Shown: positions 5,199 through 58,959 of the stretch, one piece after another
Position numbering within the stretch: the stretch's first letter is position 1
How the letters are laid out: every line of letters starts with the position of its first letter
Assembly (NCBI GenBank): GCA_034231615.1
Contig: CM067306.1
Span: forward strand, 59,377,057-59,441,056
From: Meghimatium bilineatum
Taxonomy: Eukaryota > Mollusca > Gastropoda > Stylommatophora > Philomycidae
Direction of reading: 5' to 3'
Length of the DNA stretch: 64,000 nt
Notes under the pieces: model-generated
The model's database searches: none
Seen by the model: the letters and a program-made list of their open reading frames with translations, nothing else
What the model was told of the DNA's origin: nothing
Program-made: the position numbers and the translations under genes

Positions 5199-5368
5199 TT
5201 CTTCTTCTTCTTCTTCTACTTCTTCAGCGTTCATTCTCAAACTCCCACTGGATCTCTGTTGTAGCAGGACAATGGTCATACTAGATTTCCAGCAGGATGT
5301 AAGTAAATGAAAATACGCTGTGTCGTCGTTTATTTGCACAATGACCCAACACATACGTCTTCGGTGGG
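5199..5368 (-). mobile_element. SINE-A copy
   Basis: Reverse orientation: CTTCTTCTTC tail, AGCGTTCATTCTCAAACTCC, GTAGCAGGACAATGGTC, then CGTCTTCGGTGGG. Confidence 0.8.
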
Positions 5369-5369
5369 T

Positions 5370-5762
5370 AACTACTGATTCGAGGTAATCCTAAAAATAA
5401 TCATAGTTCTTATTTCAAGCCTGATCACATGACTTGCACATGACTTTACTAAATTGTATACGTTTGTTTAGGCGTAGAAAAATTTGTGTCAACAAACAAA
5501 GAACAGGTACTGTTAGCTATCGTGTGACCTACACCGTGGATGAAATCAAGTGGAAATCGGTACACCTATGGTCGTGCAGTGATCCGCTGACTAAATAACA
5601 ACACATTACGCTCACAACACACCATATATATATTGGTAGCGTATCCTATTCAGGACGTAGCTATCATAACATCATGTGTGAGCTATAGTGATTTTCTAGG
5701 CAGTGGAAATACGTTCAGTAATTTGCCACTGCTTTTTGAACAGATGCACATTTGCCTATAAA
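5370..5762. other. No gene seen
   Basis: Unique-looking sequence between a SINE-A and a SINE-C copy; nothing recognised. Confidence 0.6.
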
Positions 5763-33086: not shown

Positions 33087-33177
33087 ATGGCTCTTGTTAG
33101 TTTACTCGGAAATGAAGTCATTGGAAAAGATGGATCAGCAGTCGATGTACAATCGTTATCTGACAACGAAGTAGTTG
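33087..33177 (+). CDS. Gene B exon 1
   Basis: Reads MALVSLLGNEVIGKDGSAV and on, ending in V-V plus the first base of the G31 codon. Donor is GTAGTTG/GTAAGT, a perfect consensus. The start context is A at -3 and G at +4, as in gene A. Confidence 0.85.
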
Positions 33178-35784
33178 GTAAGTAAATGTGTCGATCTGGC
33201 TTGTTTCTGGTAGAAGACAAAATATTCATAGGTCAGCGTTTTTACTCCCGTGTTGTTGCTGTTGTTTTTTCTGTACATCGATTGCTTTTGTAAATTTAAC
33301 AAGCCTTTAGCTAATTCATAATTACCGTTTTATAATATCCAGTGTGTTGTTGGGCCCGAAAGGGGGCATAAAATAGCAACAGTGTGGCATGTCACGAGTT
33401 TCATAAGAGGCGACTAAGGAGATTAGGAATTAAGTTTACTGCTCCATCACTAAGGTCAGCGTGATCCACAATGGCATGCTGAAATCGAATGGATCCGACC
33501 GAATGATGGATACGACGCAAATAAACTCTAATACATGACATTGAATTCCGTTCTCCAGACTACATCATGCTAACTAGCAGGAGTTTGAGCAGTTCATTTT
33601 GGGCCAAGGATAGTACATAAGACATTAATTATGTCGGTGCAAGTGGCTTTTAATTCTTTGTTGTGACCTTTGCTCTAGTTTTAAGGTATTACCTAACCTT
33701 TGTTGTGTGATTTAGCAAGCTTAAGTTTAAGTACTTAGAATACGGTTAGGATTAGAAATAATATTTCTGTGTGCGCGCACCTGGCTCCATGTGTAGCGCG
33801 CAGAAATACTGATCGATCAGTACAAATCATAGGAAATTGTAAAAGAAACAGATTATACATAAGTTCGTCTGTCTAGAGTTGAACTCAGTGATTGTCGGAA
33901 TGTGACGTCACGGCAGCCATTAATTTCATTGGTGTTACACGGAAATCCGTGAAGTCGATTAGTTAAAAATGTAAACAGTGTGCTATTTATAGCACAGTGA
34001 AAAATCAAAAGCAACTTTTACCGTTATTTCTTCCTAGACGGCACCTTCTTCAACCAGATCAGCGGTGTTGCTATGGCCACCAAAATGGGTCCTAGCTATG
34101 CTTGTCTGTTCATGGGTCATCTTGAGCATCTTATGTTCTCTAGCTTCCAGGGTCCCATTCCCCAGTTCTATCGCCGCTACATTGACGATGGCTTTGGGTT
34201 CACGGACATGCCTGTTGCAGACCTTACAGCCTTCATCTCATTCGTTAGCAACTTCCATCCCTCTATCAAATTCACTTCCATCGTCTCTGCTTCCTCTGCT
34301 ACGTTCTTGGACATCTCTGTCTCTATTGGTCCAGGTTCGCTCTCTACCTCGGTCTATTATAAACCGACTGACTCTCACAGCTTCCTTCTATATTCCTCTT
34401 CTCACCCTCGCTCATGCCGTGATTCCCTTCCCTTCTCTCAACTTCTTCGTCTCCGTCGCCTTTGCCAGGAGGACTCTGACTTTCTACAGCATGCCCATGA
34501 TATGCTTGACTTCTTCCGCCGACGTGCTTATCCGGAGGATGTCCTTCTCTCTGCCCTTGGTCGTGTCCTTCCTATCTCCCGTGCTGATGCCTTATCACGC
34601 ACTCCTCAGCTTCCGTCGACTCGTCCTAAACTGATCCTCACTTTCCACCCTCATAATATTCCAGCTCTCAAGATCCTCCTACGGGACTTCTCTATCCTCT
34701 CATCTGATCGCCTTACCAAAGAGGCGTTTCCACAACCACCTCTTGTGGCTTTCCGTCGAGATAGGAACCTACGGGACTCTCTGGTTCACTCTCACCTCCG
34801 GCCGGCGGGACCTCCTACCGGTACCTCTCCGTGCCACCGCCCGTGCCTCACGTGCCCGTTTGTCTACCTTACCTCCTCTATCCGATTTCCTAAATCGGTA
34901 TTTCATATCCATCACACTTTTTCCTGTGTCTCCCGTAACGTCGTGTACGTGATAACTTGCAAACGCTGTAACCTGATGTACATTGGTGAGACGGGTAGAT
35001 TCCTAGCCACTAGGTTTGCCGAACACTTACGGGATATCCGTAACTGTGGATCTTCTCCGGTGGCCCTCCACTTCAACAGCAATTCTCACCGGGGGGCACA
35101 GGACATTCAGGTCACTGGCCTGGTCTCTTGCCACTCTGGTGACCGGCAACGTTTCTCATTAGAGAACCGCCTTATTCTCAACCTTGGCACTCTTAAGCCC
35201 TATGGCATCAATGACCAGTTATACTTTCAATAATCTCTTAAAACCCCCCCTCCCTGCTCTGCCTCCCTGCTGCTCCTACTATCTTTACCTTACCCTTATT
35301 TCTTCCTGCTCATCTCCTTGATACTGTTGCTCTCTATTGTGGTGGCTCGGCCGGGGCCCCCACCCAGGGTTTGGGGCTACGGTGACATGTCACGTTGCGA
35401 TTGGTGTGTTGGTGGGTGGTTACGCCATGGGACTGGGACCGGTGCAGCTTCATCCGGGGTGGGTCTGTTGCGGTTTGGTACGTCGGTTTGATGGTTGATC
35501 TGTATCCCCTCGCTACCACACTCTACTCTCTCTCTACGGGTTGTTTCACCCATGCTTCATCCTCCTCTTCTCCTTTAGATTCTTTGTCATACTCTGTCTA
35601 CTTTCTCTATTTCCATTGCTTAGGGCTATGTCCGCTCTTTCTCTTGTGCCATTCTCTGTGGCTCGTGGGCGACACCACGTACCTATTATCATATTTCTTC
35701 TGGCCACATTCTTATCAATTGGGGCGGCTACCCATACAGTTACGTAGCATGTGGTATGTGGTGACTGTTTGATGACTGACAAAT

Positions 35785-39600: not shown

Positions 39601-42600
39601 CAGATGTGTCAGGCCGTAAGTCATTCTGAATATTGATGTGTCAGGCGGTAAGTAATTATGAAGTCCATGTCATGTCGTAAGTCATTCTGAAGACTGATGC
39701 GTTAGACCGTAAGTATTCTAAGGATGATGTATAAGGCCATATGTTTTCTGAAGACGGATGCATCAGGTCGTAAGTATTCTGAAGACTGTTGCGTCAACAT
39801 CAGGTCGTAAGTATTCTGAAGACTGTTGCGTCAGGTCGTAAGTATTCTGAAGACTGTTGCGTCAGGTCGTAAGTATTCTGAGGACTGATATGTCCTGCCG
39901 TAAAGTGTAGATATTGCAACTAAACTTGAAAACATATTCACAGCTCATTCCGTTCTACGGACTATATCATGTCACCACAGGAGTTAAAAAATAAAAACAG
40001 AAGAAGAAGAACATTACGCAACATACTATTTTCTAGTATTTAACACTTTGTCAAATATTGGTGTCAAATATCGGTGTCAAATATCAGTGTCAAAAATCGG
40101 TGTCAAATATCGGTGTCAATTATCAGTGTCAATTATCGGTGTCAAATATCGGTGTCAAATATTGGTGTCAAATATCGGCGTCAAATATTGGTGTCAAATA
40201 TTGGTGTCAAATATCGGTGTCAAATATCGGTGTCAAATATCGGTGTCAAATATTGGTCTTTAGCAACCTCGCAGCAGAGAAAAATCATCACATGTGAGAT
40301 ACAGTGTTTGAGGAAAGCTGCTATGGTCACCAAACTAGACAGAATTAGAAATGACGATATTAGATGAAGAGTAGGAATAATGCCTTGCATCACCGCCGAA
40401 GACTGATGTGTCGGGCCAGACATAATTAGAAAGGACTATCAGCTGACGAGTAGAAATAATATCTTGCAACACCACCGAAGACGGATGTGTCGGGCCATTG
40501 GCGCAAATAAAACGGGGACACAACGCATTTCCCTTCTATGGACTACATCCTTCTGGAAATATAATAGGACCATGGTCCTGCTACAAGAAATATCCAGTGG
40601 GAGTTTGAGAATGAACGCTGAAGAAGAAGATGCCTTGCATCGAATATATAGAACGTAAGTAGATAAAGTGGTTTGGTCACAGTGAGAATAGACCAAAATC
40701 GAATACCAATGAGAGCTTATAACAAACGATTATCTGGATACAGAGCCAAGGGAAGACCGAGACAGAGATGGATTGATAACAGCACGACTACGCTCCACAA
40801 ACACGGACTCAACACGACTTAGGCGTCACATCTGGTCTTGAAAAGAAACTTACAGCTCCACCCCGAAGCTTAACGGCAAGTGTGGATGCTTACAACCAGC
40901 TTCACCCTGTAAGACACAATAGACATTTTAGTAACGCGATGGTTCTCCTCGCCATTGCCCGCCCTATAAGATACTTGCCCTTGATCTATTGCTCAGTTTA
41001 TGTAAACGTTATTGATTCACTCGTGTTGCGTGACTGGCTAAGCTCCAATCGAGCGAAATTACTGTGAACGTTGAATGTGTTTCTGACCAGAACTTGGGAA
41101 GATGCTGAACTGTTTCTTTATCTGTTAATGTGTTTGTATGTTTGTTTTGTGTGGCGTTCTCTCTGTTTATCGAATTGCCTGTCCATGTTTTTAGTTGTCT
41201 ATCTATCTATCGTATTCATGCATCTATATCCGTCTATGTATATATATTTCTATCGCTATTTCTATCTAACTAATTGTATCTCTGTCTCTAGGTATACCTT
41301 TATGTATGTCTGCCCTGTCTGTCTCTTTGTCTAATTCTCTTTGTATTTCTCCCTATCTATTCATTTTTGTTGGTCTGTCTGTAATTATGACTTCATGTAT
41401 GTCTGTCTGTCTCTATATCTGTCTTTCTGTACGACATAATGTGTGTATTTCTGTCTGTCTGATAATCTGCATCTGAGTCTGTAGGTATGAATCATGCCTG
41501 TCTCTATATCTGTCTGGCTGTAGGTATGAATCATATCTGTCACTATATCTGTCTGTCTGTATGCCTATAACTTAATGTTTGTATATGGATTCCTCGGTAT
41601 GTCTATTTATATTTCTACTGTAGGTATAACTTAATGTATGTATATCTGTTTTATCTCTGTATGTATGTTTATATGTCGGTATATTTATCTGTGTTTGTTT
41701 ATCTATCTTTATATTTATCTGTCTGTAGGTATGAATCATGTATGTCTGCCTGTCTCTATTTCTGTCTGTCTGAGGTATGAATCATGTCTGTCTCTATATC
41801 TGTCTGTCTGTAGGTATGAATCATGTCTGTCTCTATATCTGTCTGTCTGTAGGTATGAATCATGTCTGTCTCTATATCTGTCTGTCTGAGGTATGAATCA
41901 TGTTTGTCTCTATATCTGTCTGTCTGTAGGTATGAATCATGTCTGTCTCTATATCTGTCTGTCTGTAGGTATGAATCATGTCTGTCTCTATATCTGTCTG
42001 TCTGAGGTATGAATCATGTTTGTCTCTATATCTGTCTGTCTGTAGGTATGAATCATGTCTATCTCTATATCTGTCTGTCTGTAGGTATGAATCATGTCTG
42101 TCTCTATATCTGTCTGTCTGAGGGATGATTCATGTCTCTCTGTATATCTGTCTGTAGGTATGAATCATATCTGTCTCTATATCTGTCTGTCTGAGGTATG
42201 ATTCATGTCTCTCTCTATATCTGTCTGTAGGTATGAATCATGTCTGTCTCTATATCTGTCTGTCTGAGGTATGAATCATGTCTGTCTAAATATCTGTCTG
42301 TAGGTATGAATCATGTCTGTCTCTATATCTGTCTGTCTGTAGGTAGGAATCATGTCTGTCTATACGTTTCAGTTACTTCATGTTTATATATCAATATGTA
42401 TGCATAGCTGCCAATGTGTGGGTATATCTTTTATTTCTGTCATCTGTCTTTAAATTTTACATACATATCTTTTGTAGGTGTTTGTGAGTTTGTTACAAAA
42501 CAAGATTCAACAGGTCTTGTAAAGCCACAAAATTATATGTGTTGGTATACTATTGAGAATAATAGTAATATAAACAGATAAATTACGCCGAAGACGGGTG

Positions 42601-45600
42601 TGTCGGGCCATTTGTGCAAATAAAACTGCGACACAACGCATTTCCATTCTCTGGACTGAATCCTGCTGGAGATCTAGTAGTACTGCTACAGGAGAGATCC
42701 AGCGGGAGTTTGAGAATGTACGCTGAAGAAGAAGAAAAAACAGATAACGAGAAGGTAAAATAACCCATTACATCTTAGTTGCCATTTTAGTAGTTTTATT
42801 TGTCAAACAAGTTGGCAACTATGATTACATTATGCTGATTGTGTCTGGGTCGTGTAGACCGAGATGAGGTTATATTTGATTATACAAGGAGAAATAACGA
42901 ACAATAATGGATGAAATAACGAACAATAATGGATGAAATAACGAACAATAATGTATCGGTTCTATTAAACTCTTTGTATGTGCAGGGATCTATATGTTCT
43001 GTCGCAATATGATTGGTCGTCACTGTAAACAATTGACTGTTTATTGGCTTGTTGGATGTGTCCAGCTCGCGAGTTTAGTGGCCTATGATAGAAAGATATT
43101 TAAATCTATTTTATTAAATTAATAAAATTGACATTTTGCTAAGTGTATCGACTTCTATTTTTCTGTTATGTGTGGCAGGATTGAATGAGGCTATCCATTC
43201 AAAATATAAAAATCTGACGCATGTATGTATTACTGTAATTATTTCTGTCCATTATGTGTTTTCTATGTGACCGAATATTGTTTCTTTGTTTTTAGAACCG
43301 CTCAAAATGTGCAGAGGATTGATTCGTTGTAATCTCTTTTCCCCATATACATAGTCAATCTCTTTCAACAGCAGCTTATACTATAATCTCCAGGAAAAAG
43401 TGAAAACTATACTAAAGAGGATGGATTGGGGAACAAGCTCAGATAAAACTCAAAACACATAAAACCAGCAAAAAACGTAGCTGGACGACCATTAAAAAAA
43501 TATAACCAACATGAAAAAAGGATGTGATAAAGGCAAAGGAACACATGGAGAACAGAGGTCTTGAAGTACTTAACAGATATCGCATGGAGAAGACAGGTCA
43601 AGGGAGGCCAAGAAGTACTTGAAAGAAATGGGAAACGTAAGAAATGATACTTGGAACAATGTAGAATTATCTTAATTTTTTTTCCTGGAAAGATGTTTTT
43701 GATGAGCATGTTTGCTACCAAATTTTTAAAGTTTGTCAACTGAGCAATCTATATAAATTAACCCATGACCGCTTGAAGTATAGAAGACCTCTGCACCGAA
43801 AGTAAACAAGCCTTCTTTCGTTGTTTTTTTATTATTCTCGTGGTTTTCATTGTTCAATATTTATATACTTGATATCGCCATGACTATTTTGGCATGCGAT
43901 TCCATGTATGTAAATAGTGATCAATGGAACTCACGACAATAATAAAAAACATAACGAATGAAGGCTTGTTTACTTCCTGTGCAGAGGTCTTCTATACCGT
44001 AGACTGCCATGATTGATCCCAATTCTAACACATTGTTTATTTGAGTATGCTAATAAAATACAACGAGGACAGGACGAGTTCTTCTTCAAGATAACTAAGT
44101 GCGCTTACTGTTTCATACCATGCGGCATAAGAATTGTATTAACGTCGATTCAGCATGACAAAGGATTTTTATTATGAATGGGGAATAATGAGATAGCTTA
44201 TCTCCTAGCTCATCGCTGAGTTGTTGTTTTTTTTTTTTAAATTTTGAATCAAACAGTTTATTGTTTATATGAACTTTGCTTGACACCTTTGCTGTGGTGC
44301 GGCATAACAAGCCTTTTTATAACATTTAAGCGTAGCGAACCGATTTCATCATGTAATGTCAATAATGTTATGTTATGTATGTCGGTAATGTACTGTAATT
44401 CTGTACTATAATGTACTCGCATTGCTGCGATATATGCGCCTTTCTGCCTGACACATCCGACTTCAGCATGGCTTTGGGTCATTGACCCTGTATGGGATGG
44501 GACAGCCAACTCCATCCCCTAACCTCCTTAGTCGCCTTTTACGACATGCATGGAAGGTAAACAGCGTTACTATTCTTTGCTCCACTTTCGGGCCCCGGCA
44601 ACACACGGGCGTAATGTACTGTAATTTAGTGCCAGCAATGTCATGTCATTAATGTAAAGTTATGTAATACCTACAATGTAGTGTCATGTGATGTCAGTAA
44701 TGTAATGCCATTAGTGTCAGTAATGTAATATAATGTAGTGTCAGTAATGCCATGTAGTTTAATGTCATACAATGTCAGTAACGTAATGTAATACCAGTAA
44801 TGTAATGTCAGCAATATAATGTCGCGAAATACCAGTACTGTAATGTCGGTAACGGAATGTCATGTAATGCCAGTAATAATGTCATGTTATGTAATGTCAA
44901 TAATGTAATGCCATGTGGTGTTAGCAATGTAATGTCTTGAAATGCGGTGTAATATAACACCATGTGTTGTGGTGAAATGTAATTTCATGCAGCATCAGTA
45001 ATATAATGTCATATAATGTATGTAATGTAATGTTATGTCATGTAATGTCATGTAATGTCCGTATAGAAAATATCGTAAACGAAACTTCGATAACGGAAAC
45101 CACAAGTGAACGAAACTTTGGTTAACGAAACTTCAGTGAACGAAACCACGGTGAATGAAAGCTCGGTGAATGAAACCTCGGTGAATGACACCTCGATGAA
45201 TGACACCTCGGTGAATGAAACCTCGGTGAATGAAACCTCGGTGAATGAAACCTCGGTGAATGAAACCTCGGTGAATGAAACCTCGGTGAATGAAAGCTCG
45301 GTGAATGAAAGCTCGGTGAATGAAGGCTCAGTAAATGAAACATCAGCTAATAGAAGTTAATAAAATCAGCTAATAAAATCAGCAAGAATAGAGCTACGCC
45401 CAGCCCCCCTTTACTGTTTGAGCAACCACCTACACTGAAACCATGCTCACAATTGAGATAAGGACACCCAACGACAAGTGACAATAAAATCGTTCAATTA
45501 CACGAGACGAGTTCAGTGAACACCTAGATAGACGTAGTCGACCCAAGTTTAACTTTCTGCTTACCGTCACCTCGGAGACTGTTTCTCGGGAACATGTTTG

Positions 45601-48600
45601 ATATGTGAAGTACAAGAGCATAATAGGTAATAAACCGTCATGGTGTACATATGATACATATTCGCTGCCTATTGTTACATAGGAAGTCAGTAACAGGCTA
45701 GGGAAGCTCATCTGAATTAGAATTCCGAAATCGGATGTGCTAGGCCTACATGGCACAAAATGAACAGTCGCATAACGTACTTTCGCGCTCCCTGGCGGAA
45801 ATCACACGACATTCGTGAGGATTTTTTGAGAGCTAACGCAATACAAACAAACATCAGTCAAACTGTTCTTTTCAGCAAAAACCAGATTATCAAGTAACAG
45901 CAAATAGTGAGAGGCCAATACTGGTGACCACAGCACGGCTCATTGAGGACACCCATATACGATTGTGGCGCCTAAAATATGAGACAGAATATTGACTGGG
46001 CATGCCATGTTTAATTATTCTGCGTGGTAATTGTTACAACTAGTAATTGCGTAGTAATTCAACTGGTTACAACAGAGATGAGATGTCTGAGAAACACCAC
46101 AGGAGTGACCAGAAGACACAGAATTAGAAACGATGTCATAAGAGAAATAGTGGGTGTCATATCAATTCTACAATACATACAACACCAAAAGATACAATGG
46201 TTTGGTCATCTGGAAAGAATGCCGTGTGATTCATTAGTTTATAAAGCATATATAAAGAGGGGAAAAGTAGAAAGAAGAGCCACGGTTAGTCCTAGAGTAC
46301 GCTGGATCGACAACATCAAAGAGACATTACACGAACACCGAATAACATCCGCAGCTGCCAGAAAAGCGAGAACAAGAACATTGTATCGCCCTCGATACCC
46401 GTGAAGGGTAAAAGAGGAAGGAAAGAAGAAGAAGAAGTAGTAGTAATTGTTTCAATGATTCATAACCACCGAAGTAGGGTATGTCGAGCCAATAAAACGG
46501 CGAAGCAACGTATTTCTGTTCCCATGATCATATAATTGCTGGAAACCCAGTAACACCATTGTCCTGCTAGAAGAGAGACTTATAGTGAGTGTGAAAACGT
46601 ATTATTTGTTTCATGACTCGGAACAACTAGTTTTGAATTACTTGTGAATGATATTTCATCTTTAATTATTTGATATGACAAAATTTGTTTGCAATGATCA
46701 TCCGGGTTACTTGTTTATGTACTGCTGGTTCAGACGATCAAGGATAATAAGGACTGTACTAAAACTGTATACCAACACATGGGAACAAAGAACACGCGTA
46801 TTAAGATGGCCAGTTTCCAAAACAGACGAAATAATTGTTACTATATGTGTGTTTCAATGTGATCTTGCATTTGAATAAACGTCTGTCCTAATGTGATCAT
46901 TAATCTCTACAAACGTCTGTCATAATGTGATCATTAATCTCTACAAACATCTGTCATAATGTGACTATATATCTCTACAAACGTCTGTCCTAATTTGATT
47001 ATATATCTCTACAAACGTCTGTCCTAATTTGATTATATATCTCTACAAACGTCTGTCCTAATTTGATTATATATCTCTACAAACGTCTGTCCTAATTTGA
47101 TTATATATCTCTACAAACGTCTGTCCTAATTTGATTATATATCTCTACAAACGTCTGTCCTAATGTGATCATATATCTCTACAAACGTCTGTCCTAATGT
47201 GATCATATATCTCTACAAACGTCTGTCCTAATGTGATCATATATCTCTACAAACGTCTGTCCTAATTTGATTATATATCTCTACAAACGTCTGTCCTAAT
47301 TTGATTATATATCTCTACAAACGTCTGTCCTAATTTGATTATATATCTCTACAAACGTCTGTCCTAATTTGATTATATATCTCTACAAACGTCTGTCCTA
47401 ATTTGATTATATATCTCTACAAACGTCTGTCCTAATTTGATTATATATCTCTACAAACGTCTGTCCTAATTTGATTATATATCTCTACAAACGTCTGTCC
47501 TAATGTGATCATATATCTCTACAAACGTCTGTCCTAATGTGATCATTAATCTCTACAAACGTCTGTCCTAATGTGACTATATATATCTCTACAAACGTCT
47601 GTCCTAATGTGACTATATATATCTCTACACACGTCTGTCCTAATGTGACTATATATATCTCTACACACGTCTGTCCTAATGTGACTATATATATCTCTAC
47701 AAACGTCTGTCCTAATGTGACTATATATATCTCTACAAACGTCTGTCCTAATGTGACTATATATATCTCTACAAACGTCTGTCCTAATGTGACTATATAT
47801 ATCTCTACAAACGTCTGTCCTAATGTGACTATATATCTCTACAAACGCGATATCTGCTAGCTTGCCATACTATTGTTCGTCCATCACATGATGATGATGA
47901 CCATTTGTTACATCCACTTTTTAAAATTCAGTTAGAGTTATGTCCTTGATTATGAGTTCGTAGATGGTTAATGAGAACTATTTCAGTTGTAAATGTCCTT
48001 GGACAGTTCGCACATGGAATGACCACTGTAGACGTATCTTGGACTATCCATGACTTTCTAGCTACTCTCCGCTGTTGAGCTCTGCATTTCTCCTTCACAA
48101 GATGATGCGCTATTTTTAATTGTAGAACGCCATGTAGATTTTTTGTGTGCAAGTTCTTCCCATTTATCGTGGTCTATTTCAAAGGCTTTCAATGAGGCCT
48201 TTAACGAGTTCTTGTAGCGCTTCTTTTGGCCACCATGAGATCGCATACACTTCTCCAGCTCACCATAGAGAAGTATATTTCTTAGACGATGGTCTGGCAT
48301 ACGCACCAAATAACTAGTCCAACGAATCTGTGTCTGCATCAGGATAGTCAATGCTGGGGATACCAGTTCTATCAAGGACAGTGGTATCTGGAATCTTGTC
48401 TTGCCATTTGATGTTTATAACCTTTCTGAGACAAGTTGTGTGAAAGTGATAAGAGTTTTTTCACATACCTCCATACACAGTCCATGTTTCACTAGCGTAT
48501 AACAGCACTGGAAGTACCACTGCTCTGTAAACTTTCAGCTTAGTCTGTAGGTTAATGCCATTTCTACGCCAAACATTTGCGTACAATTTGCCGAAAGTGC

Positions 48601-51600
48601 TGCTTGCCTTGGCGATCATTGTATACACATCAACGTTGGCATTTTGTGATAACGTACTACCAAGGTATGTGATCTATTCACAATTTTCAGTGCTACGCCA
48701 TTTATCTTTCTGTAGGGATCGAGATAGCTTTTGCCAGGTGCTGTTGTAGCATGACTTCTGTTTTCTCTGTGTTAATAGTAAGCCCAAAGTTGGTATATGC
48801 TTTGGAGAATCTTTGGAGAATTTTAGTACGTTGTAGATCAGCCTCCAGTTGGCATTTAGGAAACAGTCATCAGCAAATAGGAGATCCCTGATTGTGTGTG
48901 ATTTAATTTTGCTTACTCTACTAGCGATATGGTAACAGACATCCACCGTTGAGTGGAAGTGGTACAAAATATTACCACTTATTAGTTACATACTAGTAAC
49001 CAATTAGTTACCAATACCGTAATAACTACCAATTGTTAACTACATATTATATACAAGTGTCGAAGTTGGATTTGTCAGACCATTGGAGCAAATAAAACGA
49101 TGTCACATCGCATTTCCTTTCTCTGGACACCATCCTCCTGGGAATCTAGTAAGGATATTGTCCCGCTATAAGAAAGATCTGGCGGGAGTTTGAGAACGCC
49201 AAAAAATACTCCGTGATACTGGAAGATATATTGGTCTACAGGTATGTCGTGTGTATCGAAGTCGCTGTTTCAACGGCTTATTGGAAATAAAGAGTTAAAA
49301 GATTCTCAATATATTTTGCTCAACTACATTTTGTGCCGCTTCGTATTCTTTATTCTAAAACCGGCCTTCACATGATTAACCTTTTCATTGCGTATTTTTC
49401 CTTGCCCAAACTATGCTCACTTGGAATTTTTGATAGTTTAATGTTATGTTTTCATGTATATTTTTCTAAGCCCAGCAGACTAAAATAATATATTGATCTT
49501 ATTTACATGTTTTTTCAATCACCGTTTTATTGGTTGATGACGTTTGATCGATGAAACAGCTGGCTACGACAGCAGGATTTTTTAATGCAGATGTAAAGAT
49601 AATATGAGTTTTGAACCAGCGTCATAGCACACAACTTCCTATAAGTGCTAGACTTCTTAGTCAGTGGTTGCCCAGAAACCGCCTGACTGGCACTGTATAG
49701 AGCACTTGCTCAGTAACGATGGCGCCATTTCTCGACCTTCCCATAGCATGAGACCTGGTACCCTACTTACAATAAATAACTAAAATATCGGAGGATTTCC
49801 GACAAAATTGATTGCTATTTGTTTCGTGAAAAAGGTCTCGGTTGGACCACAATGTAGAAAATTGTCCCTGTTTTATATTTTATTGTTAGTCTTTTATTTT
49901 TTACTATTGTTAGGTATTTTATAGTAACCTGTATACCTAATTTAGTATACCTTACTTACTCGTGGTTGAGTGAACCACGATTGAAAGGGTGGGGGGGGGT
50001 ATTTTTTATTTCAAACCACGAATAACGAGAAGATTCGAAATCTCGGTTTGCTGGTCGGCGGGCGACAGACTTATATTACACTACATGGGATCCCATTTTT
50101 ATTGTGCCGCAGCGTATGACAATGTTTCTTCACAAACATATGCACAATAGTGATTAGGCATTCCATAAACATATATCTTAATGTGATAAATCAATCCATC
50201 TCCACAAACGTATGTCCCAGAGTGATCGTGCATCTCCACAAACGTATGTCATAAACAATTAGCATGCATTTCCAAAAGCTTATATCTCAATGTGATTTAT
50301 CAATCCATCGTCACAAACATATGTCACAAAGTGAGTATGCATCTCCACAGACGTATGTCACAAAGTGAGTATGCATCTCCACAGACGTATGTCACAAAGT
50401 GAGTATGCATCTCCACCGTCGTATGTCACAAAGTGAGTATGTATCTCCACCGTCGTATCTCACAAATTGAGTATGCATCTCCACAGACGTATGTCACAAA
50501 TTGAGTATGCATCTCCACAGACGTATGTCACAAATTGAGTATGCATCTCCACAGACGTATGTCACAAATTGAGTATGCATCTCCACAGACGTATGTCACA
50601 AATTGAGTATGCATCTCCACAGACGTATGTCACAAATTGAGTATGCATCTCCACAGACGTATGTCACAAATTGAGTTTGCATCTCCACAGACGTATGTCA
50701 CAAATTGAGTATGCATCTCCACAGACGTATGTCACAAATTGAGTATGCATCTCCACAGACGTATGTCACAAATTGAGTATGCATCTCCACAGACGTATGT
50801 CACAAATTGAGTATGCATCTCCACAGACGTATGTCACAAATTGAGTTTGCATCTCCACAGACGTATATCACAAGAACGCGATCTAAGAAAATCACATATT
50901 GAAACTCCAAAGTACTGTGAAAATATTTTAGTCGTATACCCAACGATAAAAATTTAATTTGGGGCCTCCCAATTGCTCATATCTGTCCTAATTCCCCATC
51001 CCACTTATCACTTCCCCCATCGCTATTTTCCTTATGTGTTCCCAAGTATTTCCGTCGTTGTTTGTGTATTATTTTCGCCCCGATAATAACTTCGTTCCGA
51101 AACGTTGTATGCCATTTTATTTAGTTCTTAGTTTGTCGTTTTTATTAATGGTAACGCTTTGACTAGCTTTTTTGTATTCATACTCAGATTTGTTATATAT
51201 TACCTCAGCCCCTATTTTTCCAACTTGTTGGATTATCTCTGACTCGCGTAATTTACCATTGATTTCATTCTCTTCTACAGGTATCTATTTCTCGGCACAC
51301 TGGTGCCCACCTTGCAGGGCGTTTACCCCTGTGTTAGCACAGTACTATGAGAAATTACGTAATGATGGAAAGAAGTTTGAGATCGTCTTTGTTAGTTCTG
51401 ATCGAGAAGAACATGAATGTATTGATTACTATGGGGCAATGCCTTGGTTGCTTCTACCCTACAAGGATAGACAGAGGAAGGTGAGTTGAGAATGTATTGA
51501 TTACTATGGGGCAGTGCCTTGGTTGCTTCTACCCTACAAGGATAGACACAGGAAGGTGAGTTGTGAATGTGTTGATTACTATGGGGCAATGCCTTGGTTG

Positions 51601-54600
51601 TTTCTACCATACAAGGATAGACAGAGGAAGGTGAGTTGTGAATGTGTTGATTACTATGGGGCAATGCCTTGGTTGCTTCTACCATACAAGGATAGACAGA
51701 GGAAGGTGAGTTGTGAATGTGTTGATTACTATGGGGCAATGCCTTGGTTGCTTCTACCCTACAAGGATAGACAGAGGAAGGTGAGTTGTGAATGTGTTGA
51801 TTACTATGGGGCAATGCCTTGGTTGCTTCTACCCTACAAGGATAGACAGAGGAAGGTGAGTTGTGAATGTGTTGATTACTATGGGGCAATGCCTTGGTTG
51901 TTTCTACCATACAAGGATAGACAGAGGAAGGTGAGTTGTGAATGTGTTGATTACTATGGGGCAATGCCTTGGTTGCTTCTACCCTACAAGGATAGACAGA
52001 GGAAGGTGAGTTGTGAATGTGTTGATTACTATGGGGCAATGCCTTGGTTGCTTCTACCCTACAAGGATAGACAGAGGAAGGTGAGTTGTGAATGTGTTGA
52101 TTACTATGGGGCAATGCCTTGGTTGTTTCTACCATACAAGGATAGACAGAGGAAGGTGAGTTGTGAATGTGTTGATTACTATGGGGCAATGCCTTGGTTG
52201 CTTCTACCATACAAGGATAGACAGAGGAAGGTGAGTTGTGAATGTGTTGATTACTATGGGGCAATGCCTTGGTTGCTTCTACCCTACAAGGATAGACAGA
52301 GGAAGGTGAGTTGTGAATGTGTTGATTACTATGGGGCAATGCCTTGGTTGTTTCTACCATACAAGGATAGACAGAGGAAGGTGAGTTGTGAATGTGTTGA
52401 TTACTATGGGGCAATGCCTTGGTTGTTTCTACCATACAAGGATAGACAGAGGAAGGTGAGTTGTGAATGTGTTGATTACTATGGGGCAATGCCTTGGTTG
52501 TTTCTACCATACAAGGATAGACAGAGGAAGGTGAGTTGTGAATGTGTTGATTACTATGGGGCAATGCCTTGGTTGCTTCTACCCTACAAGGATAGACAGA
52601 GGAAGGTGAGTTGTGAATGTGTTGATTACTATGGGGCAATGCCTTGGTTGCTTCTACCCTACAAGGATAGACAGAGGAAGGTGAGTTGTGAATGTGTTGA
52701 TTACTATGGGGCAATGCCTTGGTTGTTTCTACCATACAAGGATAGACAGAGGAAGGTGAGTTGTGAATGTGTTGATTACTATGGGGCAATGCCTTGGTTG
52801 CTTCTACCCTACAAGGATAGACAGAGGAAGGTGAGTTGTGAATGTGTTGATTACTATGGGGCAATGCCTTGGTTGCTTCTACCCTACAAGGATAGACAGA
52901 GGAAGGTGAGTTTTGGGTGACTGGTGGATGAAGAAGGAAAACTTTGAATGTGTTTTCCTTCTTATTCTTCTTCAGCGTTCATTCTCACACTCCCGCTGGT
53001 TCTCTCTTGCAGCAGGTCAATGGCTCTAGTAGATTTCTAGCAGGATGTAGTCCAGAGACAGGAAATACACTGTGTCAGTGTTTTATTTGCGCAGAGCGTG
53101 TTAACTTATGGACGTAACTTGGTGTCTCATCTGTTAGTTGCCGTGGACCCGAGAGGGGAGTAAAATAAGAACAACGCTGTTACTATACCATGTATGTCAA
53201 AGGAGGCGACTAAGGAGCCTTATGGTGGAATGGTGTCCCATCAAATACATGGTCAATATAGCCTAGAAACCATGCTGAATTCTCATGTGTCAGACCGAAA
53301 GTAGCAGATATCGCAGCTAAGCTGTAAACCATGGCAACGCATTAGGTTTTCTGAATTACATTGTGCTCATTTGCAGGAGCTTAAGTACGAAAGAAGAAGA
53401 AGACGTAATATTTGATTTTCTAATATCTGATGAATACAATACAGTATCATGTCACCATAAAACAGAGGTATGCAGAATACGTCCCGCGAACCAGATCTTG
53501 CCCGATCAGTCATGTTGTGTCTGGTCTGCCATGCTAATTTAACCCAATAATGCATTTCGTCTTTTTTTTTTTTTTTAAATCAATACTGCATTTTTCCTGT
53601 TAGACGGGAGCTGCAAGGATGTTGCGAGTGGTTTGTGTGATAAAGATTGCATATCTAGCTGTTGTCATCACGTCACGTTTAGAGGTGGTTTTTAATTTAC
53701 TCTCCGACAAAAACAAATCTCAGTCCTTAAAGTGAGTCAATCCCTGAATGACAAATTGTAGCGGTTGCGAGACCCACACTCTAACCTCTCTGCCACGCGT
53801 CAAGGTATATCGTCCGTTATAAATGACAAATTACATTATCATCTTTTGTATGCCTTTTGTCTATTGTCTTTCCCAAGGTTAATGATGGTACATAGTATCC
53901 ATACTTGCCGTTACGCGTATGGGCGTGAGCCTCAGTTGTCGTTCCAGGGGCAGATGTTTCGGCTCGGTTGCGTTGAGTCCATGTTTGTTCAAGGTTATCT
54001 TGATATTTTCTATCGACCGTTTTCTTAGTCTACCTTTTGTCTGTATATCCAGACACTTCTTTGTTATATGATTTTATTAGTATTTGACTGAGTTCATTCT
54101 CATAAGTCGACCCCCTAATTTTACTTGTTCTCTTTCGATATACTTAATACATGATATTAAACCTATGTTTTCTTAATTACTTCTCTTATCTAGTACAGTA
54201 ACTATTTCAACCTTTTTTTTGCAACATACACGAGTGCCCTGCTTTCCGTCACATACATGAGTGCCCTGCTTTCCGTCACATACATGAGTGCCCTGCTTTC
54301 CGTCACATACATGAGTGCCCTGCTTTCCGTCACATACATGAGTGCCCTGCTTTCCGTCACATACATGAGTGCCCTGCTTTCCGTCACATACATGAGTGCC
54401 CTGCTTTCCGTCACATACATGAGTGCCCTGCTTTCCGTCACATACATGAGTGCCATGCTAAGCTCCTTATTCTGTCTCAGAAGTGTCTATAGCAATCCAG
54501 ATCTGAATTGCATGGGTGGTTTGTCTAGTGGGCCATTGGTGAAACCCACAGACGCAACCGCATACGTATTAGTATTGTTATTATTACTATTATTATTATT

Positions 54601-56370
54601 ATTATTATTATCATTATTATTATTATTATTATTATTATATTTCTGGCATTGTCTGCACAGCTTTATTGTCTCCATAGCCAGCAATCGAACATCCAATATA
54701 TAAAGTCATAGGACAACACTGCTATAAAGAATAAGGTGACATTTATAAACCTATGTTGATGTGCTGCATAAGGTAGATTAGGCATGCATTGGTCATTCTC
54801 TCGATGTCAATAATCGTCACATGACATATTAGGCATATATTGGTCATTCTCCTCTAGATGTCAATACTTATCACATGACATATTGTTTCCAGAATGTAGC
54901 TTTCATTATGGATTCTATGAAATTTCAAGGATTGTTGGCAAGCTAACTCACAAACATGGACATTTTCAAACTAATGTAAAATAAATAAGTAACAATAAAC
55001 AAGAGTACAAGTAATATTTCTATGTTGCCGTACAACAGGGACACTTTTTCAAGAAACGAATACAAACTAGAAACAGAAACACAAATTTATTTAATTATAC
55101 AAAACAATGCACAGAGATGTCTCACCAACCATGTCCGGGGCATCTCTATGCCGTTTTAAAATAATTAAATAAGTTTGTGTTTCTGTTTCCAGTTTGTATT
55201 CCTTTTTTTTGGTGGAAAAAGGTCTTCTGTTAGACTGCGATGTAGAAAAATGCATTGTTCTTCTGTTTACTGTTAATTGTTTTTTATATTAGTTTTACTA
55301 TTAGATATTTAGAATATCTAGTCTTATTCTTATGCGTTCAGCAACTGTGGTCATGCTATATTGCCAGGCCCGTCGTCAAGACGAAGTCCACCGTCTTCTC
55401 CAGGTCAGAGCTGCTGCCCCATAGCTTTTGCCTCAAATCTGTATCCTTTGGCCAGGTCTGTTGTCTCTGCTCTTTGTATGTTGAGCAGTCCTGAAGTATG
55501 TGTTCCGGAGTCTGGGTTCCGGATCCACATGGACTTTCATCTGTGTATGAGATCCTCAATCGGTAAAGGTGACCCAACAGTCTGCAGTGGCCTTTTCCAC
55601 AGCGAAATATTATGGTATGTTGATATCTTTGGAGGAAATGTATTGCATCATATTGTCTTCCACTTCCATTTGTTTCTTCCACTTTGCTGTGTATAGAATA
55701 TAAAGTAATATTATGACATTACTATTGTATTTATCGCTTCGTTGTTTCTGTTATTGCGACTCTCTCTACTTTGTCGACATCCTCTCATAGTTTGGTTATT
55801 TACACATTGTCAAACTCTGTGATATTTTATTTCTATCTTCTATTTGGACGGTTATTTTGTTCTGTCCAAACCAGTCATGCTGTACGGAAACATAGAAAAA
55901 TTACTTGTACTTTTGTTTATTGTTATTTATTTTTTACATTAGTTTGTAAATGTCCGTGTATGTGGGTTAGCTTTCCTAGAATCCTTGAAAATTCAAAGCA
56001 TCCGTAATGAAGGCTACACTATGGAAACAATATGTCATGTGACAAGTATTGACATCTAGAGGTGAATGACCAATATAACCCATCCCACCTCCCCTACCTT
56101 CTCCCATAAATACGCTCATGCAATGAAGAAATCTTATGCCTGTATAAATCGTGAATAAAATTAATGATAGTAAATTTAACTGTGAACTTGTCATTCTAAA
56201 ACTGTCTCGAAATTTAACTTTCTTTTCAGGAGCAGCTTTCCCAGAAGTATGGAGTTCGGGGAATCCCCACACTTATACTGTTAAATGGCAAAAATGCTGA
56301 AACTATTACACAAGATGGCAGAAAAATCGTTAATACGGATATCAACGGGGATGGTTTCCCTTGGAAGTGA
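33087..56370 (+). CDS. Gene B: tryparedoxin/nucleoredoxin-like thioredoxin-fold protein (143 aa, 3 exons)
   Basis: Joined exons 33087-33177, 51281-51480 and 56230-56370 give 432 bases (91+200+141) ending in TGA. Residues 32-43 read IYFSAHWCPPCR (C39, C42). A strand 'FEIVFVSSD', then 'MPWLLLPYKDRQRK' (84-97) and the loop VRGIP (P110) follow. Role as for gene A: a single-domain disulfide reductase by family, substrate unknown. It is a clear paralogue of gene A with the same three exons, the same phases (1, then 0) and the same total length, so the pair arose by duplication including introns. Intron 1 is 18,103 bases and holds a Penelope-like element, SINEs, LINE pieces and six or more tandem arrays. 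Intron 2 (4,749 bases from the first donor) starts with 19 tandem copies of the exon 2 tail plus splice donor. Only use of the first donor gives the full-length reading frame. Confidence 0.86.
33348..33598 (+). mobile_element. SINE-B copy in gene B intron 1
   Basis: GGGCCCGAAAGGGGGCATAA, TAAGAGGCGACTAAGGAG, CATGCTGAAATCGAATGGAT, CAGACTACATCATGCTAACT, AGGAGTTTGAG. Confidence 0.75.
33599..34000. other. Gene B intron 1, nothing recognised
   Basis: Sequence between a SINE-B copy and the 5'-truncated Penelope-like element. Confidence 0.5.
34001..35233 (+). CDS. Penelope-like element polyprotein, 5'-truncated (RT C-terminal part + GIY-YIG endonuclease)
   Basis: The frame is open from just after a TGA at 33998 to TAA after 35233; the first ATG is at 34073. 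The start reads as RT (FFLDGTFFNQISGVAMATKMGPSYA), followed by the catalytic YIDDGF and the Penelope thumb region. A Cys/His linker (CHRPCLTCPF, then H-I-H-H) leads into a GIY-YIG nuclease: VVYVITCKRCNLMYIGETGR with R-F-A-E-H further on and a downstream N. This RT plus GIY-YIG order is diagnostic of EN+ Penelope-like elements, which insert by target-primed reverse transcription. The N-terminal half of RT (motifs 1-3) is missing, so the copy is dead as a unit. It lies in gene B intron 1. Its base composition is markedly richer in C/T than its neighbours. Confidence 0.9.
   Translation, partial: KIKSNFYRYFFLDGTFFNQISGVAMATKMGPSYACLFMGHLEHLMFSSFQGPIPQFYRRYIDDGFGFTDMPVADLTAFISFVSNFHPSIKFTSIVSASSATFLDISVSIGPGSLSTSVYYKPTDSHSFLLYSSSHPRSCRDSLPFSQLLRLRRLCQEDSDFLQHAHDMLDFFRRRAYPEDVLLSALGRVLPISRADALSRTPQLPSTRPKLILTFHPHNIPALKILLRDFSILSSDRLTKEAFPQPPLVAFRRDRNLRDSLVHSHLRPAGPPTGTSPCHRPCLTCPFVYLTSSIRFPKSVFHIHHTFSCVSRNVVYVITCKRCNLMYIGETGRFLATRFAEHLRDIRNCGSSPVALHFNSNSHRGAQDIQVTGLVSCHSGDRQRFSLENRLILNLGTLKPYGINDQLYFQ
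35234..37560 (+). mobile_element. Probable Penelope-like 3' region with homopolymer-T tracts and hammerhead-like motif
   Basis: C/T-rich sequence continues without a break from the Penelope-like frame, unlike the AT-rich surroundings. It contains T-runs at about 35786-35812 and 36619-36661, and CTGATGA...GAAAC at 37431-37455, a hammerhead-type core. Small open frames here have no recognisable domain. I infer it belongs to the element or to a second such insertion; the right edge is not sharp. Confidence 0.45.
37613..37870 (+). mobile_element. SINE-D copy, 5' end decayed
   Basis: AGTGAGCTTGCTTGCTATC, GACAGGTTCGAAACCACG (B box), CGACTCAGCTGTAAAT and CCCCGACGGCAGA follow the order of the 60271 copy. 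The first tRNA-like bases are lost. Confidence 0.75.
38069..38449 (+). mobile_element. Solitary 381-base copy of the same element, 14-base target duplication
   Basis: Flanked by TATCTATGACGAAT at 38055-38068 and 38450-38463. Starts TGTCCTCTGGCTTCC and ends GTCTCAAGAATTTTT. Near the right end, GGTTCAATTCCC looks like a pol III B box, so this may be a SINE whose tRNA-like part is at the right; the 12-14 base duplications fit retrotransposition. It lies in gene B intron 1. Confidence 0.8.
38825..39130. repeat. 31-base tandem array (~10 copies)
   Basis: GAGTCTGTGAAGAGTGAGTA plus TAGAAAACCGC. Minus-strand frames (199 and 130 codons) are artefacts. Confidence 0.95.
39258..39510 (-). mobile_element. 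SINE-B copy, diverged
   Basis: CAAGATGTAGTCCAAATAAC, GACACATCCGACTTCAGCAT, ATTACGACATGGATGA, TTCTTTGCTCCCTTTC. Confidence 0.65.
39560..39900. repeat. Degenerate ~30-base tandem array
   Basis: TAAGTATTCTGAAGACTG plus TTGCGTCAGGTCG, increasingly regular towards 39880. The unit resembles the SINE-A head (GAAGAC.GATGTGTCAGGCC), so the array may be an expanded SINE-A start. Confidence 0.8.
40050..40258. repeat. 13-base tandem array (~16 copies)
   Basis: TCAAATATCGGTG / TCAAATATTGGTG; open in all three + frames. Confidence 0.95.
40270..40880 (+). pseudogene. LINE-Y C-terminal part, interrupted by SINE-A
   Basis: Before the SINE: C-E-I-Q-C-L-R-K-A-A-M-V-T-K-L-D-R-I-R-N-D. After it: I-K-W-F-G-H-S-E, R-L-S-G-Y-R-A-K-G-R-P-R-Q-R-W-I-D-N. 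The two halves join at the 12-base duplication ATGCCTTGCATC. Confidence 0.78.
40392..40629 (+). mobile_element. SINE-A compound insertion inside a LINE, 12-base target duplication
   Basis: ATGCCTTGCATC at 40380-40391 and 40630-40641. Between them lies a 25-base SINE-A head fragment, then ~55 bases resembling the host LINE itself (about 40419-40472), then a full SINE-A ending GAAGAAGAAG. Confidence 0.85.
41200..42365. repeat. 39-base tandem array growing out of TCTG-rich sequence
   Basis: TGTAGGTATGAATCATGTCT plus GTCTCTATATCTGTCTGTC. Degenerate CTGT/TATC-rich from 41200, regular from ~41730. In gene B intron 1. Confidence 0.9.
42582..42737 (+). mobile_element. SINE-A copy, ~10-base target duplication
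   Basis: AAACAGATAA at 42572-42581 and 42738-42747 flanks CGCCGAAGACGGGTGTGTCG to GCTGAAGAAGAAGAAAA. Confidence 0.82.
42890..42955. repeat. 22-base repeat (3 copies)
   Basis: AATAACGAACAATAATGGAT plus GA. Confidence 0.85.
42956..43379. other. Gene B intron 1, nothing recognised
   Basis: AT-rich, no repeats or long frames. Confidence 0.5.
43380..43680 (+). other. Possible LINE-like remnant, weak
   Basis: The + strand contains V-A-G-R-P-L-K-K-Y-N-Q-H-E-K-R and later GGCCAAGAAGTACTTGAAAG, basic G-R-P-like motifs, but no continuous frame. The minus-strand frame 43407-43739 has no recognisable domain. Confidence 0.2.
43765..44015. mobile_element. Foldback MITE with ~110-base inverted arms
   Basis: The left arm (GTATAGAAGACCTCTGCAC, then AGTAAACAAGCCTTC) and the right arm (GAAGGCTTGTTTACTTCC, then GCAGAGGTCTTCTATACC) are near-perfect complements around a short centre with TTTGGCATGCGATTCC. 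No coding potential. Related copies: 4305-4525, 22975-23205, and half copies near 6200-6310 and 62140-62245. Confidence 0.7.
44340..45060. repeat. Degenerate TAATGTCA/TAATGTA-rich array split by SINE-B
   Basis: GTAATGTCATGTAATGTCAG-like 5-8 base motifs on either side of the SINE-B copy at 44409-44610. Confidence 0.8.
44409..44610 (-). mobile_element. SINE-B copy, tail truncated
   Basis: TGCGATATATGCGCCTTTCT, CACATCCGACTTCAGCATGG, GACAGCCAACTCCATCCCCT, CCACTTTCGGGCCCCGG. It splits a TAATGT-rich array; TAATGTACT on both sides may be the target duplication. Confidence 0.75.
45075..45352. repeat. 15-base tandem array (~18 copies)
   Basis: GTGAATGAAACCTCG; a multiple of 3, so N-E-T-S-V frames appear on the + strand and a matching frame on the minus strand. 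No gene. Confidence 0.94.
45353..46059. other. Gene B intron 1, nothing recognised
   Basis: A minus-strand frame (45430-45756) shows no domain. Confidence 0.5.
46060..46402 (+). pseudogene. LINE-Y pol C-terminal tail, open
   Basis: MRCLRNTTGVTRRHRIRNDV, then Q-K-I-Q-W-F-G-H-L-E-R-M-P and R-V-R-W-I-D-N-I-K-E-T-L-H-E-H-R. Best-preserved copy of the family Y tail; the RT core is missing, so it is a 5'-truncated insertion. Confidence 0.8.
46466..46600 (+). mobile_element. SINE-A copy, decayed
   Basis: ACCACCGAAGTAGGGTATGT, AATAAAACGGCG and CATTGTCCTGCTAGAAGAGA keep the family order; the tail is lost. Confidence 0.6.
46872..47852. repeat. 34/36-base tandem array (~28 copies)
   Basis: ACAAACGTCTGTCCTAATTT plus GATTATATATCTCT; the last third uses a 36-base form with an extra TA. 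Related to the array at 50130-50880. Confidence 0.96.
47928..48990 (-). pseudogene. Non-LTR retrotransposon pol with FADD box and C-terminal zinc finger, broken
   Basis: Minus strand, three frames: 48967-48674 has I-R-D-L-L-F-A-D-D-C (RT motif 5). 48375-48058 has T-Q-I-R-W-T-S-Y-L-V-R-M-P-D-H-R, L-L-Y-G-E-L, H-G-G-Q-K-K-R-Y-K and D-H-D-K-W-E-E-L-A. 48152-47928 has CANCPRTFTTEIVLINHLRT-H, a C2H2 finger. These follow the order of a well-known animal LINE tail. In gene B intron 1. Confidence 0.82.
49058..49198 (+). mobile_element. SINE-A copy, decayed
   Basis: GTCGAAGTTGGATTTGTCAG, GCAAATAAAACGATGTCACA and GGCGGGAGTTTGAGAACGCC; no GAA tail remains. Confidence 0.65.
49199..50129. other. Gene B intron 1, mostly unrecognised
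   Basis: 49840-49960 resembles the foldback element arms at 54975-55050 (GTAGAAAATTGTCCCTGTTT). A G-run lies at 49991. Confidence 0.4.
50130..50880. repeat. 34-base tandem array (~22 copies), related to 46872-47852
   Basis: GCATCTCCACAGACGTATGT plus CACAAATTGAGTAT; the earliest units (50190-50340) have CTCCACAAACGTATGTC, intermediate with the other array. Confidence 0.95.
50881..51280. other. Gene B intron 1 end, approach to exon 2
   Basis: CCCGATAATAACTTCGTTCC-GAAACG at about 51078-51104 resembles the Penelope-like motif at 37431 in decayed form. A good pyrimidine tract precedes the exon 2 acceptor. Confidence 0.4.
51281..51480 (+). CDS. Gene B exon 2 (WCPPC active site)
   Basis: Acceptor is a pyrimidine tract ending TCTTCTACAG. 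Donor is GGAAG/GTGAGTTG at 51481. It encodes residues 31-97 with W-C-P-P-C at 38-42. From about 51416 to the end, and a few bases into the intron, this sequence is the founder of the 75-base tandem array that follows. Confidence 0.9.
51481..52905 (+). repeat. 75-base tandem array of exon tail plus 5' splice site (19 copies)
   Basis: Nineteen units of exactly 75 bases begin at 51481 and every 75 bases after; the twentieth donor is at 52906. Each unit is ~10 intron bases (GTGAGTTGTG) followed by ~65 bases copied from the end of gene B exon 2, so each ends in GGAAG and abuts another GTGAGTT. As 75 is a multiple of three, the frame stays open on both strands, giving long repetitive frames (468 and 490 codons) that are not separate genes. 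Unit 1 differs: GTGAGTTGAG puts an in-frame TGA right after the real exon, and it has GTG for ATG and CACAGG for CAGAGG. Other units alternate CTTCTACCC/TTTCTACCA variants. Confidence 0.97.
51481..52912 (+). promoter_or_regulatory. Twenty tandem 5' splice sites
   Basis: AAG/GTGAGT occurs at 51481, 51556 and every 75 bases to 52906. Each is a near-consensus U1-binding site in the same sequence context. Using donor 1 gives normal exon 2. Using any later donor adds one or more units but meets the TGA in unit 1 two codons after K97, so it would give a truncated product. Which donors are used cannot be told from DNA. Confidence 0.75.
52958..53098 (-). mobile_element. SINE-A copy, head truncated, just past the 75-base array
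   Basis: TTCTTCTTCAGCGTTCATTC, CAGCAGGTCAATGGCTC, CAGGATGTAGTCCAGAGA. It lies 50 bases after the last splice donor of gene B. Confidence 0.72.
53138..53398 (+). mobile_element. SINE-B copy in gene B intron 2
   Basis: GTTGCCGTGGACCCGAGAGG, AAGGAGGCGACTAAGGAGCC, CATGCTGAATTCTCATGTGT, then GGAGCTTAAGTACGAAAGAA and GAAGAAGA. Confidence 0.7.
53399..53869. other. Gene B intron 2, nothing recognised
   Basis: A T-run at 53563 is the only notable feature. Confidence 0.5.
53870..54195 (-). pseudogene. LINE-Y C-terminal fragment
   Basis: Complement of TCTTTCGATATACTTAATAC and ATAAGTCGACCCCCTAATTT parallels 11190-11350. The 3' part gives N-M-D-S-T-Q-P-S-R-N and the R-Q-x-x-D basic tail. Many stops. 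Confidence 0.5.
54230..54455. repeat. 27-base tandem array (~8 copies)
   Basis: ACATACATGAGTGCCCTGCT plus TTCCGTC. Open on both strands because 27 is a multiple of 3. Confidence 0.95.
54568..54642. repeat. (TTA)n microsatellite
   Basis: About 24 TTA/TTATCA units, in gene B intron 2. Confidence 0.93.
54795..56090. repeat. Large inverted repeat (foldback), ~240-base arms
   Basis: The left arm (54795-55045: CTAGATGTCAATACTTATCA, CAAACATGGACATTTTCAAA, AAGAGTACAAGTAATATTTC) and the right arm (55860-56085: GAAAAATTACTTGTACTTTT, AGTATTGACATCTAGAGG) are inverted copies. Inside, a second inverted pair lies at 55058-55105 / 55158-55204, along with the LINE fragment. It ends ~140 bases before gene B exon 3. 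A related piece is at 49840-49960. Confidence 0.7.
55356..55690 (-). pseudogene. LINE pol C-terminal domain (CCHC-like)
   Basis: A 108-codon minus frame reads F-R-C-G-K-G-H-C-R-L-L-G-H-L-Y-R-L, then S-P-C-G-S-G-T-Q-T-P-E-H-I-L-Q-D-C-S-T-Y and L-E-K-T-V-D-F-V-L-T-T-G-L. This C-x-x-x-H/C tail follows RNase H in Jockey/I-type LINEs. It sits in the centre of the large inverted repeat 54795-56090. Confidence 0.75.
56230..56370 (+). CDS. Gene B exon 3 (cis-proline loop, C-terminus)
   Basis: Acceptor is CTTTCTTTTCAG. Reads EQLSQKYGVRGIPTLILL and on to F-P-W-K and TGA at 56368-56370. It is 141 bases like gene A exon 3. The inner segment differs (G-K-N-A-E-T, then D-G-R-K), closer to the usual 'D-G-x-x' of nucleoredoxins than gene A is. 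Confidence 0.88.
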   Translation, partial: EQLSQKYGVRGIPTLILLNGKNAETITQDGRKIVNTDINGDGFPWK

Positions 56371-58455: not shown

Positions 58456-58746
58456 ACGAAACAAGAGTTGGACAGCGATCATAGTGTCGTTTTGCTTTTA
58501 TAATTTCAAGCTTTTCTACAGAATACATCGAGGGATAACAAATATAATGCTTTCGATCTGTGAGAATGAATCGCGCCGAACACAACACAATCGAGTATAA
58601 TACAGCCCGATCTGGCAACAGACTAGTAGAAGACCAGGAAAAAATTATACGACGCTCTCGTGACTGAATTACTAGAACTGCGACCTCCGCTATTGTTTGA
58701 TGATTAAACGCTCTGATATGATTAATTAGACTAGCACTCACGGTTT

Positions 58747-58903
58747 CTTCTTCAGCGTTCATTCTCAATCTTCCACTGAATATCTCTTGTATCAGGACCA
58801 TGGTCCTATTAGATTTCCAGAAGGATGTAGTCCAGAGAATGGAAATGCGTTGTGTCGCTGTTTTATTCGCGCCAATGGCCCGACACATCCGTCTTCGGCG
58901 GGA
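58747..58903 (-). mobile_element. SINE-A copy, 12-base target duplication
   Basis: CACTCACGGTTT at 58735-58746 and 58904-58915 bounds a near-complete reverse copy (CTTCTTCAGCGTTCATTC to CGTCTTCGGCGG). Confidence 0.9.
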
Positions 58904-58959
58904 CACTCACGGTTTAGAGTAGTTTATCTCTCTACAATATGTGCTTTAATTTAACCAAA

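Follow-up and report, generated by a model that had tools for sequence, protein, structure and literature searches.

Why should the end of a coding exon, together with the splice donor that follows it, stand twenty times in a row, and what becomes of the gene that carries it? The question is raised by a 64,000-nucleotide stretch of the genome of the gastropod Meghimatium bilineatum (GenBank assembly GCA_034231615.1, contig CM067306.1; hereafter the window), in which exon 2 of a thioredoxin-like gene, here called gene B, runs directly into a tandem array of donor-bearing units to which an initial annotation had drawn attention. As argued below, the array is most probably an expanded minisatellite that was seeded over the exon/intron boundary and is tolerated because splicing at donor 1 still leads to the normal protein, a certain amount of unproductive splicing being its side effect.

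An array of identical donors on the exon of an intact gene

Each unit of the array is composed of 65 nt from the end of exon 2, carrying 22 exon codons, and the first 10 nt of intron 2, in agreement with the approximate composition proposed initially (about 65 exonic and 10 intronic bases). Over the window's + strand, 20 occurrences of the sequence AAGGTGAGT were counted, all of them inside the array and with a spacing of 75 bp in 19/19 intervals between successive occurrences, so that the last exon-side bases of the donors fall at 51480, 51555 and onward to 52905. Tandem Repeats Finder (TRF) delimited the same repeat at 51414-52912 (period 75, 20.0 copies, 98% matches, 0% indels); motif count and TRF both bear out the twenty identical 5' splice sites in 75-base units, 19 of them extra copies, that had been noted from the letters. 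From position -3 to +7 (AAG/GTGAGTT, the slash marking the exon/intron boundary), the genuine exon 2 donor and its 19 exact copies were identical across all 20 donors, and each unit deviated from the array consensus by 0-3 bases. Private differences were confined to units 1, 2 and 20, one further difference being common to units 1 and 2, and the unit types run AABcAABAABcABBBAABAA, with three types in the interior. Minisatellite turnover usually leads to divergent edges and block-like interiors, and the head-to-tail arrangement of near-identical units within the range of about 10-100 bp is that of a minisatellite. At the DNA level, a search of the whole genome returned, among the best candidates scored, 20 matches, namely 19 in the array and one other, a paralogous stretch of 107 bases on the opposite strand.

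The exon model of gene B was derived from comparison with the neighboring paralog C and describes an intact gene of three coding exons and 143 residues, with introns of 18,103 nt (intron 1) and 4,749 nt (intron 2); the coordinates are collected in Table 1. Exon 2 of paralog C stops at the same codon as that of gene B and is followed by the same 9-base donor. The predicted protein matched PF13905 (Thioredoxin_8) at 98 bits (cut-off 27), and its closest solved relative was tryparedoxin 3s9f (3e-34), the similarity being full-length. The WCPPC motif was located in exon 2, as expected from the initial claim that the array sits on the active-site exon. Judging from PF13905, WCPPC and the similarity to the solved relative, the gene B product is a tryparedoxin/nucleoredoxin-like thioredoxin. 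Gene B and paralog C share 107 of the 143 residues, with a nonsynonymous divergence (dN) of 0.15 versus a synonymous divergence (dS) of 0.53 (Nei-Gojobori), and the gene therefore evolves as a working protein.

Table 1. Coordinates of gene B and of its donor array within the window
Feature	Position	Strand	Basis
Gene B exon 1, coding part from ATG	33087..33177	+	Homology to paralog C exon 1; joined reading frame
Gene B exon 2, WCPPC active site, ending at donor 1	51281..51480	+	PF13905; paralog C exon 2 end
Donor array, 20 head-to-tail units of 75 bp, AAG/GTGAGT in each	51416..52915	+	TRF and motif count
Donor 1, genuine 5' splice site AAG/GTGAGT	51478..51486	+	Gap-free alignment to tryparedoxin 3s9f
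In-frame TGA, unit 1 only	51487..51489	+	Met when donors 2-20 join exon 3 directly
Gene B exon 3, coding part with stop	56230..56370	+	Paralog comparison; joined frame

The array itself contains open frames of 476 amino acids in the sense and 528 amino acids in the antisense direction. These frames arise because the unit period is divisible by three, and the array was rejected as a coding gene on this ground. The exonic variants across units comprise four amino-acid-changing and one silent difference, which, at so few sites, would speak weakly against a coding use of the spare units.

Donor choice and its predicted outcome

When donor 1 is joined to the exon 3 acceptor at 56230, the resulting protein aligns to tryparedoxin without a gap across the exon 2/3 junction, and donor 1 is therefore the functional donor by homology. 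Splicing from any later donor would retain the TGA of unit 1, which is the third codon past exon 2 (GTG AGT TGA); the other units read TGT instead, and the frame stays open until it closes beyond unit 20. The initial annotation had placed this stop straight after the exon and in unit 1 alone; its restriction to unit 1 stands, its position does not. The accompanying claim that any donor but the first truncates the protein holds, in the joined frame, for later donors connected straight to exon 3, and the transcripts so produced are predicted to lose the exon 3 coding sequence, including the GIPT loop. The stop differs from the other units by one base (TTGAG versus TTGTG) in an edge unit and so needs no selection to be explained.

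The distance from the TGA to the last junction is 66 nt for donor 2, 141 nt for donor 3 and 1,416 nt for donor 20. According to the usual rule for nonsense-mediated decay (NMD), the stop should lie more than 50-55 nt ahead of the last junction, and the reading frame predicts that transcripts joining donors 2-20 directly to exon 3 are NMD substrates.

What might favor one donor over another was examined through pairing energy and folding. The computed U1 duplex energy was equal for donors 1, 2 and 20 (-10.7 kcal/mol), a value reached or surpassed by 26 of the 1,732 GT sites of the gene B pre-mRNA, 20 of which lie in the array. Exon length (200 nt for donor 1 versus 275-1,625 nt for the later ones) would favor donor 1, and nearness to the acceptor would favor the later donors. 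Regarding predicted folding, the donor core was unpaired at 0.38 in unit 1 and at 0.27-0.78 in five other units, unit 2 showing the highest value (0.78), and the lowest-energy folds of four array stretches held AAGGTG in a stem, mostly with GCAATGCCTT of the same unit. All four stretches folded worse than their shuffles (z +1.1 to +2.2). Since donor 1 was not singled out and the folds were worse than those of shuffles, RNA structure was rejected as the donor selector. It is plausible that splicing leaks to donors 2-3 to some extent. The locus amounts to a natural test of spliceosomal choice among 20 donors of the same core at 75-nt spacing, one productive and 19 stop-marked, in which exon definition is pitted against nearness to the acceptor.

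Origin of the array and competing explanations

A protein-level search of the genome with exon 2 produced 25 matches. Of these, 19 fell in the spare units and one was gene B itself; the remaining five were paralog C, located about 21 kb downstream of gene B on the other strand, paralog A (window position 12105), and one match each on C8, C23 and C12. None of these five paralogous exon matches (5/5 examined) carried an array, it being understood that the C12 match lacks a clear exon boundary and that the C23 match was examined for arrays across its 3.2-kb locus. Paralog C has the donor core AAG/GTGAGT as in gene B, followed by GGGGGAGG in place of the repeat. Most simply, the array would be a gain in gene B after the split between B and C, a polarity read from the paralogs of this genome rather than from an outgroup species. 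A span of about 65 kb holds the three tryparedoxin-like genes, with A (12103-14962) and B (33087-56370) sharing a strand and C (L034/L035) in the opposite orientation. Intron 1 of paralog C contains an array of its own, with 42 copies of a 23-bp unit (97%) starting about 315 bp from exon 2 (L034 8745-9720).

The surroundings were surveyed over 114 kb, consisting of the window and five 10-kb stretches (L034-L038) that had been picked for their paralogs or for adjoining the window, not at random. With a period of at least 10 and at least three copies as the criteria, 53 arrays were found, covering 18.9% of the sequence (2.9% to 33% per stretch), and 22 of them had at least 10 copies. Within gene B, array sequence amounts to 3,672 nt in intron 1 (18,103 nt) and to 1,668 nt in intron 2 (4,749 nt). 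In a genome so dense in minisatellites, an array at an exon edge is not astonishing; contact was observed at one of the 11 exons checked. Two arrays of intron 1, at 46877-47847 and 50312-50873, have related 34-bp units, the form CTCYACARACGTMTGTC being visible by eye in both; degenerate copies precede the second array, and the two perhaps belong to a dispersed minisatellite family.

Under the explanation that we favor, a tandem duplication would have copied the last part of exon 2 together with the first bases of intron 2, and slippage or unequal exchange would then have raised the number of copies to 20 within these minisatellite-rich surroundings. Unit 1 would keep serving as the real exon end and the other 19 units would be intronic, donor 1 dominating over its copies; the 19 spare units would be tolerated because donor 1 splicing gives the normal 143-residue enzyme. 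Leak to donors 2-3 would generate messages that stop prematurely at the TGA and that NMD is predicted to clear, and the array would represent at most a mild drag on expression, its effect on gene B probably being close to neutral. The near-identical and indel-free units, the constraint on gene B and the conserved protein obtained from donor 1 all support this explanation, which suggests that a minisatellite-dense genome can tolerate an exon-edge array while the first copy works.

Several observations weigh against a tolerated minisatellite. Among the 53 arrays, this is the sole one with MAG/GTRAGT in its consensus unit on either strand, and its unit is the longest among the 22 arrays with at least 10 copies, which makes it untypical of its surroundings. 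Exon 2 of gene B is also the only exon touching an array among the 11 checked in six related genes. The intactness of all 20 donors would be expected under selection too, although recent homogenization also explains it. Finally, an advantage of donor 1 is not explained by U1 energy, which is equal, or by folding, in which unit 2 is the most exposed. The initial suggestion combined a tolerated minisatellite with a first donor that wins; its first part fits best, while neither U1 energy nor the predicted folds single out donor 1 as the winner.

The main alternative is a splicing decoy or dosage switch, in which U1 and the exon 3 acceptor are contested between donor 1 and the later donors, wrong choices bring in the TGA, and the unit number or the level of a splicing factor sets the share of productive mRNA. 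The anatomy of the locus is consistent with such a role, given the concentration of the strongest U1 sites of the pre-mRNA in the array and the single stop that poisons all later donors, and downstream repeat units of IFI6 are reported in PMC4526556 to be used as donors. We nevertheless regard it as unlikely, considering that a single base in an edge unit accounts for the stop, for which selection is not required, that the five paralogous exon matches do without an array, and that minisatellites are common in the surroundings. A more specific form, to which we likewise give a small probability, would make the array a length-tunable poison-exon rheostat and U1 sink, the number of units determining how frequently a later donor is chosen and hence what fraction of the mRNA is lost to the stop of unit 1; with its densely packed U1 sites, the array may in addition protect the intron against being polyadenylated prematurely. 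If true, the rheostat would give a redox enzyme a heritable control of expression that shifts at minisatellite speed.

An assembly artefact, whether as an excess of units or as a misassembled array, is very improbable. Tandem arrays are a known trouble spot for assembly, but the 1.61 Gb in 32 contigs, those met being 44-87 Mb long, suggest that long reads were used, an array of 1.5 kb with distinguishable units fits within a single long read, and miscounted units would still leave an array.

Least likely of all are readings in which the units act as acceptors as well, with ACAAG/GATAG acceptors and the unit donors bounding 15-nt in-frame micro-exons (DRQRK), or with the AG/GT pairs delimiting 75-nt introns or recursive sites. 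A 15-nt in-frame segment does lie between a possible acceptor and every unit donor, and the pyrimidine fraction ahead of ACAAG (0.68, scored on a TTGTTTCTACCA unit) equals that of four of the six real acceptors of these genes; the case for the proposed 15-base micro-exon is weak, since 16% of the 974 intronic AGs (about 153) reach the same score. The pyrimidine tract that had been attributed to each unit (TTGCTTCTACCC) occurs in part of the units, the others reading TTGTTTCTACCA or TTGCTTCTACCA. Duplicated AGGT segments are able to create introns (PMC3443670); the pyrimidine tract needed directly before AG/GT for such an intron gain, or for a recursive site, was absent from the units, where the AG directly before GTGAGT (GGAAG/GT) has a fraction of 0.26 versus 0.68-0.84 in the six real acceptors, and inter-unit introns would measure just 60 or 75 nt. 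Micro-exon, recursive and tandem-intron readings are unlikely on these values.

Beyond the subject of the array, intron 1 of gene B harbors a 410-aa open frame (window 34001-35233, + strand) with a terminal GIY-YIG domain (PF01541, 23.2 bits, cut-off 22.6), which resembles the terminal part of a Penelope-like retroelement. A dispersed element was also found on both strands of the window, at 9413-9631, 12560-12739, 40338-40535, 42586-42774 and 58730-58951, and in L035 near 5343-5462; it translates like RRRMCRAIGANKTATQRISILWTTS and is probably a transposon remnant.

Comparison with known systems

Gene B resembles the tryparedoxin/nucleoredoxin-like thioredoxins of PF13905 in its domain, its WCPPC motif and its full-length similarity, and the array is no part of that family. 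A limited literature search returned no description of such an array in the family, and a search on the competition of equal 5' splice sites or on repeats at exon edges gave nothing, phrase forms such as '5 splice site' being ones that may not match print.

Minisatellites placed in the first intron of earthworm metallothionein genes, differing between duplicated genes, are described in PMC12783039; gene B is similar in having arrays in the intron of a small gene that differ between duplicates, and dissimilar in that the earthworm arrays lie inside the first intron, with repeated donors unmentioned in the available text. In the intron gain reviewed in PMC3443670, genomic segments that contain AGGT are duplicated in tandem; gene B shares with this process an AGGT in the duplicated segment (GGAAG/GTGAGT) and the multiplication of donor-like sites. 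Unlike that process as described there, the segment duplicated in gene B already had the real donor of an existing intron, and its would-be acceptor is devoid of a pyrimidine tract.

The closest parallel bears on the initial statement that no array of this kind had been described. A minisatellite of the human gene 6-16/IFI6, reportedly described in 1995, is said to supply donors from its units at an exon/intron junction, with a unit of about 12 bp and with later donors giving small in-frame insertions. The gene B array is alike in starting on a genuine exon end, unit 1 comprising the terminal 65 nt of exon 2 and the donor, and in presenting a consensus 5' splice site in every unit (AAG/GTGAGT in 20/20). 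According to PMC4526556, two downstream repeat units of IFI6 act as splice donor sites and three mRNA species result; this is a direct precedent, and the statement cannot be upheld, the kind of array being already known through 6-16/IFI6. The gene B array, located in a different gene and in a mollusc rather than in human, is set apart from this precedent by its 75-bp unit with 22 exon codons and by later donors that are predicted to bring a stop.

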